Positions 13,152 to 26,981 of a stretch of 64,000 bases of DNA are shown piece by piece (position 1 is the first letter of the stretch; every line of letters starts with the position of its first letter). The notes under the pieces were generated by a model. That model ran no database searches, was not told the DNA's origin, and saw only the letters and a list, made by a program, of their open reading frames with translations. Source of the stretch: Anaerolineales bacterium HSG25 (GTDB lineage: Bacteria > Chloroflexota > Anaerolineae > 4572-78 > J111); assembly GCA_030377865.1 (NCBI GenBank), contig JAUCGA010000015.1:1-64000 (forward strand), in the 5' to 3' direction. The translations under genes and the position numbers were made by a program.

Positions 13152-13766
13152 ATGACCCTTCAAAATCGAGTAGACCCGTTTGGCAATATCCATGCTGTAT
13201 CCCCGCGAGGGCAAGTGATGGGGAATCGGGGTAAACTTCATAATCAGCATCAAAAAATTACCCATTTTTACCGTAACAAACGTTGGATTATCTGCAAATT
13301 GAATTTCAAAGATCGACAGCGGCAGGTAATGGCAACCGACAACTATCAGTATACGGAGCTATTTTTTCTTGACGAGGCTACCGCTCTTGCCGCGGGGCAT
13401 CGTCCATGTTGGCGTTGTAACCGAGCGAACCATCAGCGTTTTATGGCTTACTGGCAAACTGTCCATCCGCAAAGTACAAGATCAGTTGACGAGATATTGC
13501 ATCGGGAGCGCACCTTGTCCCATCAACCTCGTCAGCATAGCAAGGTCGATTATCGTATCAGTATCAACTCGTTGCCATACGGAACGTTTATAACCATAGC
13601 TGGTCAACCCTATATTTTGCTTGAGGAAACCATGCGCCCGTGGAAGTTCACTGGGTATGGTCAGGCGTTGCTTCGGTGGCAGGATACCAAAGTGAGGGTT
13701 TTAACACCTGAATCGACGGTGGCAGTATTGGCGGCAGGGTATCGACCGGAGGTCAGCGAGGTTTGA
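13152..13766 (+). CDS. Conserved protein with Ada-like CxxC metal-site segment
   Basis: 204 residues. It starts MTLQNRVDPFGNIHAVSPRG, a pattern I have met as a conserved protein of unknown function. The centre has ELFFLDEATALAAGHRPC followed by WRCNRANHQRF. The GxRPCxxC arrangement resembles the zinc-binding site of Ada (GFRPCKRC), but only two cysteines are present. The C-terminal part is beta-rich (YGTFITIAGQPYILL). A strong AGGAG lies 8 nt before the ATG. A DNA-repair role is only a guess from the Ada-like segment. Confidence 0.6.
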   Translation: MTLQNRVDPFGNIHAVSPRGQVMGNRGKLHNQHQKITHFYRNKRWIICKLNFKDRQRQVMATDNYQYTELFFLDEATALAAGHRPCWRCNRANHQRFMAYWQTVHPQSTRSVDEILHRERTLSHQPRQHSKVDYRISINSLPYGTFITIAGQPYILLEETMRPWKFTGYGQALLRWQDTKVRVLTPESTVAVLAAGYRPEVSEV

Positions 13767-13975: not shown

Positions 13976-14098
13976 AAGAGGAAAATTTGCGTCATCAAAA
14001 TTATAAATGGTAAACGGTAAATGAGCGGTATTACGGATGAATCTGATCAATTTTGTCGTGTTTTCAATGCCAGTATTTAAATAAAACTTCCTGCATTA

Positions 14099-14239
14099 AG
14101 AGAGTTGTTCGGCAATAAAGGAGTGCAAAAGCTTCTTGCTTTTGCCGGAGACAAACATGCAAAAGCAAGAAGCTTTTGCACTCCGCAGACCTCGAATTTG
14201 AGTTTTTATACGATGATAAGTTATTGCCGAACAACTCTA
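14099..14239. repeat. Family D element (D2)
   Basis: Inverted ends AGAGTTGTTCGGCAATAA and TTATTGCCGAACAACTCTA. The core is AGCTTCTTGCTTTTGC / GCAAAAGCAAGAAGCT. The single-unit form of D1. Confidence 0.8.
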
Positions 14240-14302
14240 AGTGACAATTCGCGAGCTTTTTGATTGGCGGTCATATCCCCCGAACCGTTCCCTCTGCCTT
14301 AT
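14239..14302. repeat. Truncated family L element overlapping the end of the ycaQ-like gene
   Basis: Right half of family L (GACAATTCGCGAGC...CATATCCCCCGAACCGTTCC). The left end is missing where D2 abuts. Confidence 0.65.
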
Positions 14303-15509
14303 CCCAACCTTCTGGTAAAATAACTGTTTTAGCCCCCAAAAATTGACCCAAAGCATTAATCTGGTCTGTAATCGCTTGTCGCCCAGCAGATGTTGGTGAC
14401 CAACTTGGTTCTAAATAGATGGCATTAACCCGAAAAGTACTGGTTTTACGATCCATTTTGGGGTCAATACGACCAATTAACTGGTCTCCATGCAAAATCG
14501 GTAGCACATAATATCCATATTGCCGTTTAACTTTGGGGACGTATATTTCGATACGGAAGTAGAAATTCCACAGGAGTTCCGTTCGGTCACGGTTACAAAT
14601 TAGGTTGTCGAAGGGAGAGAGCAAGGTAGTCCGGGGATACCATTCGCCATGTTGCAAGCGTTCTAATAGCGGTAAATCATCGGCATGAATATACCACTCA
14701 TCAGAATATGTCGTCGTTTCATCGGCAATTGTAACGGGCATAATTGTCTGCTCACTGACCAAGTCGGCCAATATTTGTTTGAGATTGGGGTAACGATTGC
14801 GGATAAAATGAATTTTAATCTGTTTGGCAGTGGCGACACCCAAGGCTCGTAGCGACTTTTGGCAGGCAATCCGTACAACCTCTGCTTCAGGGAGTGGTGG
14901 CTGATTGATCCATTGAGGGAGCCACTGCTCGGCCAAGGCCCATTGCCGTTGATTCCCTTTTCGCCCAGCAACCATCACTTCTCCTTGGGTCCACAAAAAA
15001 TTGAGCAGTTGCCCCAGATTTCGTCCCTCATTCCAGCCCTCCGATTTCCAAGGTGTTACCGACCTATCTTCGAGTTGCGTACCGAATAATGGCCCTTGAG
15101 TTTTTAACGCATCATGGACATACTGATAAAACTCGTGGTTTTCGCGTAGCCATTTTGCTACCCGTTTTGTCCAGTCGTTATCTTCAACTCTCGAAGCGAG
15201 CATGTTCGGCTGATGGAGGGGGTAATCTTCGGTCAAAACAATGGAGGCCGCGTGTGCCCAATATTCAAACAGGTCGCGACGTTCCCACAATAGGGTATGC
15301 AGATGCTCAACATCATAGTGACCCAAGCGACTCCATAATACCAGATATTGGGTCTTCTCCACCGCCCGAATCGGGTCGAGTTGTAGACACCCCAAATCAC
15401 GGACTACGTCCATAATTCCGGCGGGAGTTGGGTCGGGCATAGGGCCAGCTAATCGCTGACGGGTGATGGCTAAACGACGAGCTATAGTAGGGGTGATGGT
15501 TAGAGACAT
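14271..15509 (-). CDS. YcaQ/AlkX-type winged-helix DNA glycosylase
   Basis: 412 residues, the usual length of the HTH_42 (DUF1006) family, whose members excise alkylated bases and unhook interstrand crosslinks. Visible family features are ARRLAITRQRLAG, LGCLQLDPIRAVEKTQYLVLWSRLG, the catalytic-region QPPL/EYWAHAASIV segment, LLSPFDNLICNRDRTELLW and HGDQLIGRIDPKMDR. The start is 2 nt after the stop of the 155-residue gene, without its own ribosome-binding site, so translation is probably coupled. The final residues EGTVRGI and the stop are encoded in a truncated family L repeat. Confidence 0.9.
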   Translation of the reverse strand: MSLTITPTIARRLAITRQRLAGPMPDPTPAGIMDVVRDLGCLQLDPIRAVEKTQYLVLWSRLGHYDVEHLHTLLWERRDLFEYWAHAASIVLTEDYPLHQPNMLASRVEDNDWTKRVAKWLRENHEFYQYVHDALKTQGPLFGTQLEDRSVTPWKSEGWNEGRNLGQLLNFLWTQGEVMVAGRKGNQRQWALAEQWLPQWINQPPLPEAEVVRIACQKSLRALGVATAKQIKIHFIRNRYPNLKQILADLVSEQTIMPVTIADETTTYSDEWYIHADDLPLLERLQHGEWYPRTTLLSPFDNLICNRDRTELLWNFYFRIEIYVPKVKRQYGYYVLPILHGDQLIGRIDPKMDRKTSTFRVNAIYLEPSWSPTSAGRQAITDQINALGQFLGAKTVILPEGWDKAEGTVRGI

Positions 15510-15511
15510 GG

Positions 15512-15979
15512 TTATTGGTTCGGCAAAGACGTACTTTGGGCAATGAGTGATTGGATGATAGTTTTTGTTTTAGGCGCTTTAAATATATCACCTAAAATCG
15601 TTAGGAACTCTTCTTCGGTATTTGCTGATAGCTCTCTTGTTTCTTTGTCTACGTGTAGCGATTTTGCCAATTTGACTTGAGTTGGATACATATCAACATT
15701 ATGAAAAATAGCAAACAATAGGTAGCTATAGTTATTGAGCACTGGAGCAACTAGTTCAAAGCTATACTTAAACGGCTGACTAGGCATATCTAATGGTTCC
15801 TTAATTCCTACAACGTCTTTTCCAAGTTCCCAAAACTCCCGTTCATAAGGTTGTACATCGGCTTTAACCAAGTTTTGAGTTTTCTGAGCCAAAACAGATG
15901 CCTGCTCTCTAAGAATATTGACAGGTGCTCTGACGGATACTTGATCTACAGTTATATCATTGGGCCATAAATCGATCAT
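15512..15979 (-). CDS. Unknown helical protein in an operon with EEP nuclease and glycosylase
   Basis: 155 residues, not recognised. Predicted mainly helical: LREQASVLAQKTQNLV (about 22-38), a central FKYSFELVAPVLNNYSYLLFAIFHNV segment (about 70-95) and a C-terminal helix (EEFLTILGDIFKAPKTKTIIQSLIAQS). AGGAGG precedes the start, 11 bp after the EEP gene. The tight packing (11 bp and 2 bp gaps) implies a common role with its neighbours, perhaps as specificity or regulatory subunit of the nuclease. Confidence 0.6.
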   Translation of the reverse strand: MIDLWPNDITVDQVSVRAPVNILREQASVLAQKTQNLVKADVQPYEREFWELGKDVVGIKEPLDMPSQPFKYSFELVAPVLNNYSYLLFAIFHNVDMYPTQVKLAKSLHVDKETRELSANTEEEFLTILGDIFKAPKTKTIIQSLIAQSTSLPNQ

Positions 15980-15990
15980 AATAAAACCTC

Positions 15991-16794
15991 CTACAGTTCT
16001 AAAGCAAAAAGGATGGGTAAATGGTCAGACTGTTTAGGTAAACCTTGTGTTGATAAGAGTGATTCTTCACCATCAGTCTCTAATATTTGGATATGGTGAC
16101 TATTGAAATGGTTCAGTAACGCCGGCCTTAACATCATTTGGTCAAATATATGCCAAGAATTAGCACCACTATTGTAGTGATATGTTCCCGGTGGGCCGGG
16201 TGTAACATCACCAAATAGATTCCACATGGGATTATAGAAATAAGGGTATTGCACGTCGTTTGATTTTCTTTCAGCTTTCATCGCTTTACGTCGGCTCATG
16301 GTAGCATTGAGACCTGAGACACTTGTTATACCATACTCAAAAGGATTCATGTTCAGGTCACCAACCAAAAGGGTACGAGTATGGCCTATTTGAGTTTCTG
16401 TTTGTCTGATTTTTTGAGCAAAATGAATACTGCTTGAGATTTGGTCGCTGTCATTATGGTACAATTTGCTTGGTAAATGACTAACGACTAGTAGTATTTC
16501 AGGTAATCCCGGTAACGTTAGATGACGATATACAGACCTTGTATCCTCATAAACAGATGGCATCATCGAATCATTAAAACGGGTGATGAGATGGACCCGT
16601 TTACAACTGTTGTTGGGCACGTAATGGTAAAGACTTTCTTGACCTCGATTCAGCATGAAAAGGATATTTCCAATCGGAATAGTATCATCATACTCGGCTA
16701 ACATCAGCACATCGACTCGATGATTTTGCACCAGTCGAACGATATTTTCTTGTAGCGATTTATTATTGACGTTCCAAAATAAGAAGGTGAGCAT
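15991..16794 (-). CDS. Endonuclease/exonuclease/phosphatase (EEP) family protein
   Basis: 267 residues. EEP-fold landmarks in order: FLFWNVNNK (metal Asn), VLMLAEYDD (metal Glu), VVSHLPSKL, LLVGDLNMNP (catalytic Asp/Asn), and QSDHLPILFAL at the end (Asp-His). It is therefore likely a Mg-dependent phosphodiesterase acting on DNA, RNA or a phospholipid. It is first in a three-gene operon with an unknown protein and a YcaQ glycosylase, which makes a DNA substrate more likely. No clear ribosome-binding site at the ATG. Its lower GC bias compared with ycaQ, judged by eye, suggests acquisition. Confidence 0.82.
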   Translation of the reverse strand: MLTFLFWNVNNKSLQENIVRLVQNHRVDVLMLAEYDDTIPIGNILFMLNRGQESLYHYVPNNSCKRVHLITRFNDSMMPSVYEDTRSVYRHLTLPGLPEILLVVSHLPSKLYHNDSDQISSSIHFAQKIRQTETQIGHTRTLLVGDLNMNPFEYGITSVSGLNATMSRRKAMKAERKSNDVQYPYFYNPMWNLFGDVTPGPPGTYHYNSGANSWHIFDQMMLRPALLNHFNSHHIQILETDGEESLLSTQGLPKQSDHLPILFALEL

Positions 16795-26795: not shown

Positions 26796-26814
26796 AATTA
26801 ACTCCTAATTAAAT

Positions 26815-26954
26815 TAGACCTGTTCGGCAATAACTTATCATCTCATAAAAACTCAAAATCGAGGTCTGCGGAGTGCAAAAGCTTCTTGCTTTTGCATGTT
26901 TGTTTCTGGCAAAAGCAAGAAGCTTTTGCACTCCTTTATTCCCGAACAACTCTA
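26815..26954. repeat. Family D element (D3)
   Basis: TAGACCTGTTCGGCAATAA and TTATTCCCGAACAACTCTA ends, TA on both sides; the core is as in D2 but inverted. Confidence 0.82.
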
Positions 26955-26981
26955 TTATAGCACAGATTTTAATCTGTGTAT

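Follow-up and report, generated by a model that had tools for sequence, protein, structure and literature searches.

An EEP-fold gene and the gene directly downstream of it, which in the window encodes a 155-aa protein of no known family, constitute a mobile two-gene pair that recurs on viral contigs and plasmids. With moderate confidence, we favour reading it as a mobile module built around a nuclease and most probably directed against phages, in which the second protein (the partner) would target or restrain the nuclease.

The window locus

The window, a stretch of 64,000 nucleotides from Anaerolineales bacterium HSG25 (contig JAUCGA010000015.1), comes from contig C46 of the draft genome G000 (4.99 Mb). 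The three genes described in an earlier sequence-only reading were present as ORFs, all on one strand (Table 1), with gaps of 11 bp between the EEP gene and the 155-aa gene and of 2 bp between the 155-aa gene and the YcaQ-type gene. The assignment of the third gene as a YcaQ-type glycosylase was confirmed by a match to PF06224 (E 8.9e-64, 216.6 bits versus a gathering score of 25.9). The EEP protein gave weak matches to PF19580 and PF03372 in Pfam, and the 155-aa protein, which had rightly been flagged as new, gave no match in Pfam, NCBIfam, PADLOC or PHROGs. The G+C content of the pair is 0.388, that of the YcaQ gene 0.48 and that of the window 0.444, and values as low as the pair's were found in approximately 3% of equal-length stretches. 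The number of sites found in a promoter scan across the operon was not above that in shuffles. In G000 and in two relatives the pair lies in ordinary chromosomal surroundings with no prophage visible.

Table 1. Features at and near the EEP locus in the window
Feature	Position	Strand	Size	Remarks
EEP-fold Mg-dependent phosphodiesterase/nuclease (predicted), gene 1 of pair	15991-16794	-	267 aa	
Partner, 'LWP' subfamily, gene 2 of pair	15512-15979	-	155 aa	alpha/beta, no known family
AlkZ/YcaQ-type DNA glycosylase, neighbour judged outside module	14271-15509	-	412 aa	PF06224
PDC-S40-type protein	13152-13766	+	204 aa	
MITE-like repeat	14095-14245		~140 bp	
MITE-like repeat, second copy	26814-26957			

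Recurrence of the EEP gene with its partner

An ORF matching the partner profiles was located directly 3' of the EEP gene in 77 of 80 viral-contig loci (two scores weak), and the EEP-to-partner gaps at these 77 loci ranged from -62 to +11 bp. The profiles were built with 35 of 66 distinct viral loci, a set that excludes L126, whose contig has no sequence beyond the EEP gene, and L157, in which that gene is frameshifted. The remaining 31 loci served as a held-out check, and in 28 of these the partner scored E<=1e-18; the partners of L159 and L161 scored approximately 1e-3 and 4e-4, respectively, and that of L049 was lost to the ORF filter yet was visible on direct inspection of the locus. A reverse scan from partner sequences with a narrow pattern gave nine loci, all on contigs known via the EEP gene. 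Most of the distant EEPs obtained from plasmid and phage protein searches are followed by a protein of approximately 150 aa; scanning viral contigs with EEP profiles added many further loci, and six Bacteroidota loci with distant EEPs and no partner (L023-L028) were used as outgroup. The partner of L020 is split over two frames, i.e. frameshifted, and the EEP gene of L008 (a Rhizobium plasmid) seems to be frameshifted. A neighbourhood survey of the 155-residue protein had been proposed in the sequence-only reading; the EEP and 155-aa pairing was found to recur widely, beyond what chance would give, and the three-gene set was not.

The window partner belongs to a subfamily designated 'LWP' (LWP...ILREQA...YP...), with a commoner prophage subfamily designated 'GYPC'; relatives are found beside EEP genes. 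Comparison of the LWP and GYPC partner profiles aligned 105 columns with a probability of 93.4 (P 2.4e-07). The EEP tree contains the same two clades as the partners, each supported at 100/100, and on it the window EEP protein has L080 beside it and L079 close by, both from the bacterial family of the window. In PHROGs, EEP proteins, that of the window included, matched phrog_24714, annotated as of unknown function, and partners matched phrog_24185 and phrog_10179, which are held as separate families. phrog_10179 is not confined to an N-terminal piece, since the C-terminal part of the L006 partner aligns with it too. Linking phrog_24714 with phrog_24185 and phrog_10179 as one module provides context for both proteins. 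No paper describing the pair was found, a weak negative given that the name 'endonuclease/exonuclease/phosphatase' is unsearchable with its slashes.

Fold and active site of the EEP protein

The EEP fold proposed for the first gene was borne out by the weak Pfam matches together with a confident structural model (pLDDT 93.8, pTM 0.92) and a Z of about 20. Foldseek comparison of this model with the PDB gave 201 chains at E<=0.001, the top rows being EEP proteins, and DNase I, APE1, TRAS1, NExo, Mth0212 and neutral sphingomyelinase were tied at Z 19.6-20.4. As nucleases and neutral sphingomyelinase tie in Z, the fold does not fix the substrate, and naming one from the fold alone was rejected, nuclease, AP endonuclease and sphingomyelinase being inseparable on this basis. 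The protein begins immediately with the first catalytic strand. Residues E34, H106, D146, N148, D218, D257 and H258 are kept in 77 of 77 aligned EEP sequences and N8 in 76, with a gap in the other, and we take these residues together to be the EEP active-site set. H106 presumably occupies the place of the tyrosine at ExoIII Y109/APE1 Y171, with a histidine as in DNase-I-like enzymes (position matched by eye). The family shares with the DNase I/ExoIII/TDP2 branch its fold (Z 19-20 for DNase I, APE1, Mth0212 and NExo; Foldseek matches also to TDP2 and ExoIII) and the catalytic N, E, H, D/N, D, D/H set, but differs from it in an identity of approximately 20% or less and in a nearly invariant, family-typical YNPxW...W...DQ block found in the 77 sequences.

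The suggestion that the enzyme is an ExoIII-like cutter of abasic sites was not upheld. Against the equivalog cut-offs of the ExoIII/AP endonuclease (xth) models the window EEP protein scored 18.7 versus 182.55 bits and 15.7 versus 99.05 bits, and this assignment was rejected; unlike the DNase I/ExoIII/TDP2 branch, the family also regularly has a partner gene downstream. The curated families matched, all of them weakly, were ExoIII, ExeM/NucH, MnuA and one general EEP family, and are mostly nucleases. The best PDB sequence-profile match was nocturnin (E 4.7e-08), an NADPH phosphatase according to the title of 6nf0, followed by DNase gamma, Angel 2 and ExoIII-like enzymes. PADLOC-DB 2.0.0 contained no family for either protein of the window pair or for 33 EEP members.

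The partner protein and its C-terminal tails

The window partner was modelled with a pLDDT of 82.8 and a pTM of 0.76, the predicted structure consisting of a helix (residues 19-33), five strands (39-44, 70-78, 84-93, 100-104 and 116-119) and two further helices (122-133 and 136-151). Its earlier description as helical is incomplete, as the model combines one N-terminal and two C-terminal helices with a sheet of approximately five strands. The structure-based search suggested for this protein gave no match at E<=0.001 when the model was compared by Foldseek with the PDB and viral models. The best VIA-align rows, Mediator Med17C (7.3), CapZ and frataxin, were at the level of a common arrangement and were not used, and a search of PDB sequences with the partner profile gave chance-like rows only. 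Partners had no Pfam match to the SSB family or to a toxin subunit, and the window partner model had no convincing match in the PDB. Searching PADLOC with 30 partners gave two stray single matches only (E 0.006-0.009), and three weak matches to the 155-aa protein within the phylum, from a single-protein search, were judged unrelated.

Two kinds of C-terminal tail were observed among the partners, although most, including that of the window (which ends ...AQSTSLPNQ), have neither. An acidic SSB-like tip ending in IPF is present in six of 79 distinct partners (L006, L010, L012, L142, L086 and L079). The first four of these represent one plasmid clade, which also holds the tipless L009, and the tip-bearing loci occupy three places on the EEP tree. 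Such an acidic tip was found in none of 962 other ORFs of the same loci, one of which ends in a non-acidic LPF; this background excludes SSBs that had been fetched on purpose, which were four of the five [ILV]PF-ending background ORFs. The enrichment corresponds to a Fisher p of 1.6e-07, or of 3.8e-04 when the plasmid clade is counted once (3/76). The tips resemble those of host SSBs: in genome G307 the partner ends LREDEIPF and three SSBs of the same genome end LTEDEIPF, and a Klebsiella-plasmid partner ends DDDIPF, the E. coli SSB ending ...MDFDDDIPF. The SSB tip is bound by RecO and by other proteins too. For RecO the bound segment is the last nine residues of SSB (PMC7913777, excerpt).

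The second kind of tail consists of Lys/Ala/Pro repeats of variable length and was found in L128, L132, L139, L143 and L160 (four distinct partners; 294-438 aa). A Lys/Ala/Pro-rich composition is known from DNA-binding tails of the histone H1 type. Judged from these sequences, both kinds of tail suggest an association with DNA.

Genomic placement and distribution

Nine of the 66 distinct viral loci lie in P2-like prophages, with a gpA-type replication gene upstream of the pair and, downstream of it, a portal gene on the opposite strand (L111, L114, L115, L116, L118, L119, L120, L154 and L155). A further six have the downstream portal only (L098-L101, L108 and L112), at L113 gpA is the only one of the two, and at L134 a portal gene precedes the pair. 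The P2 hotspot, which carries old and tin, sits between gpA and gpQ; anti-phage systems are numerous there, alongside cargo of other kinds (PMC9122126, excerpt). An integrase gene is immediately adjacent to the pair at six loci (L117, L128, L132, L138, L143 and L148). Scanning of 94 of the 126 computed neighbours of the 66 loci gave model matches to integrase (6), portal (6), gpA (3) and UmuC-type polymerase (3), four matches to Dam-type methylase/methyltransferase models, and also SRAP and replication genes. Defence-type matches among the same 94 were single for Old, GajA, AriA and a 2TM effector, with two for Aga nuclease.

Small plasmids are a second setting. The pair is present on 3.5-kb Klebsiella plasmids and on E. 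coli pEC904, as well as on Edwardsiella and Photobacterium plasmids, and on plasmids of approximately 3 kb it is the main cargo, with little else annotated. Downstream of the pair on the Photobacterium plasmid (L011, 5404-9622) are genes for the type VI secretion proteins Hcp and VgrG. In Acinetobacter prophages the gene order is integrase, EEP, 151-aa partner, FRG, and an FRG-domain gene follows the pair on the same strand at L005, L013, L015 and L148; the FRG-domain protein could be a third component of the module or belong to defence in its own right.

The pair was found in one of 400 genomes of the phylum, as against three of 12 searched genomes of the window's family, a distribution that points to horizontal transfer or to loss on many occasions. 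No match to the pEC904 pair was found in 5,426 E. coli genomes.

Proposed function and alternatives

The preferred interpretation is that the pair, which prophages and small plasmids carry from one bacterium to another, would exclude competing phages from its carrier. The EEP protein would be the effector, a DNase-I-like nuclease acting on nucleic acid, and the partner would bind either the EEP protein or its target and so set the place and time of cutting, with replicating or single-stranded DNA as the likeliest site. Defence is argued chiefly from placement, and action at DNA chiefly from the partner tails. Weighing against this interpretation are the neutral sphingomyelinase among the fold ties, the lack of a PADLOC model matching the EEP proteins, the non-defence cargo of P2 hotspots and the ordinary chromosomal setting of the window copy and its two relatives. 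In lineages whose partner reproduces the host SSB tip, it could dock on SSB-binding proteins at replication forks, and the Lys/Ala/Pro-rich tail of other partners could provide a hold on DNA. An aside in the sequence-only reading, that the operon could be a defence system using base excision against modified phage DNA, anticipated this direction, which the prophage, plasmid and P2-hotspot placement supports, but not the composition of the system, as neither membership of YcaQ nor base excision was sustained. If the pair is a defence system, prophage-encoded immunity would gain an effector nuclease of the EEP type together with a new partner, in a form carried by plasmids of about 3 kb and by prophages from several groups of bacteria.

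A more ambitious version, which we regard as a doubtful but attractive extension, would make the pair a new type of defence in which a partner imitating the host SSB tail (or bearing an H1-like tail) loads a DNase-I-like nuclease onto forks; replication of incoming phage would be destroyed and the tip would be tuned to the SSB of each host. The absence of the tip from 73 of 79 partners, the window's among them, and the origin of four of the six tips from one clade count against this idea and against the preferred interpretation. The SSB-like tips nevertheless offer a concrete idea of how a small defence protein might find replicating DNA.

Tight spacing or overlap of the two genes on 3-kb plasmids that carry hardly anything more, and a location at prophage edges, would also be expected of a toxin-antitoxin or addiction module in which the EEP protein is a toxic nuclease and the partner its inhibitor, keeping plasmids and prophages in place without fighting phages. 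We consider this unlikely in view of the repeated seat of the pair in the P2 old/tin defence hotspot and of the gene order, as a toxin-first arrangement is the rarer one in toxin-antitoxin systems. The two interpretations overlap, since many defence systems are toxin-antitoxin-like. The literature yielded no phage-resistance, toxicity or nuclease experiment on the pair, and the excerpts of two surveys, DefensePredictor (PMC13092281) and an E. coli functional selection (PMC9519451), contain no mention of EEP nucleases.

The UmuC-type polymerase (3/94), SRAP, Dam-type methylase and replication genes among the neighbours, together with SSB-like tips that are compatible with a role in repair, are consistent with a helper of phage replication, recombination or repair, whose nuclease would process ends or lesions and whose partner would tie it to the host replication machinery. 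Such a role is rather unlikely, as the pair is also found alone on small plasmids free of phage genes and in ordinary chromosomes, and its occurrence (1/400 in the phylum, 0/5,426 E. coli genomes for the pEC904 pair) is too sporadic for a core phage function. A role in counter-defence, in which the EEP protein would destroy a nucleotide used in signalling or a product of host defence and let the prophage or plasmid establish, appears improbable: EEP enzymes take many phosphodiesters, nocturnin was the best PDB profile match and the fold ties are broad, but the nearest curated families are mostly nucleases and both kinds of partner tail point to DNA.

Among known systems, the pair resembles Old and Tin of phage P2 in being prophage cargo in the same gpA-gpQ slot but differs in comprising an EEP effector and a new partner, neither of which matches the PADLOC Old models. 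CdtB, a subunit of cytolethal distending toxin, is itself an EEP nuclease; in contrast to CdtB, considered here by description only, the pair has a single downstream partner of another kind. CDT has been named as P2-hotspot cargo (PMC9122126, excerpt). AbpAB is a two-gene nuclease system tied to single-stranded DNA-protein complexes (PMC10732053, excerpt). Unlike AbpAB and other SSB-sensing defences, the pair lacks a helicase, and some of its partners imitate the tip of the host SSB rather than sensing a phage SSB.

The YcaQ gene as a neighbour of the pair

In a set of 41 genomes (the window's plus 40 relatives), 10 carried YcaQ and three the EEP profile or pair, with both present only in G000. 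Close YcaQ copies occur in G303, G304, G305 and G309, which have no EEP match anywhere, and neither an EEP nor a 155-aa homologue was present in the fetched flanks of the relatives' YcaQ loci. Conversely, in G307 and G302 the EEP and partner genes lie elsewhere than beside YcaQ, next to genes named by eye as glycosyltransferase and C-N hydrolase (G307) and ABC1-type kinase and hydrolase (G302). Across 153 loci, a set that includes duplicates and a few outgroup loci, YcaQ was found in three, all of which had been fetched for YcaQ itself. As each of the two, YcaQ and the pair, occurs in relatives that lack the other, the YcaQ gene was judged to be a resident or chance neighbour outside the module. 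A three-gene operon of YcaQ, EEP and 155-aa genes for base-excision or crosslink repair, as put forward in the sequence-only reading with EEP and YcaQ as the repair pair, is consequently very improbable and was rejected: the gaps of 11 and 2 bp would permit one transcript, but YcaQ and the pair are apart in relatives and nowhere else together in the searched set, the EEP protein scores far under the ExoIII cut-offs, and the G+C content of the pair is unlike that of YcaQ. A lack of conserved co-occurrence was the outcome that the sequence-only reading had itself named as refuting.

Two further features were noted near these genes. A protein encoded 0.5 kb from the YcaQ gene matched PDC-S40, a PADLOC candidate defence family (E 2e-74), with a weak match to an Ada zinc motif. 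A MITE-like repeat, which combines long inverted repeats at its ends with an almost perfect internal hairpin (RNA fold z -12.4), is present twice in the window, and at least approximately 40 near-full-length copies, mostly 93-98% identical, occur genome-wide (40 of 351 first-look candidates scored), some copies forming a tandem array on contig C41.
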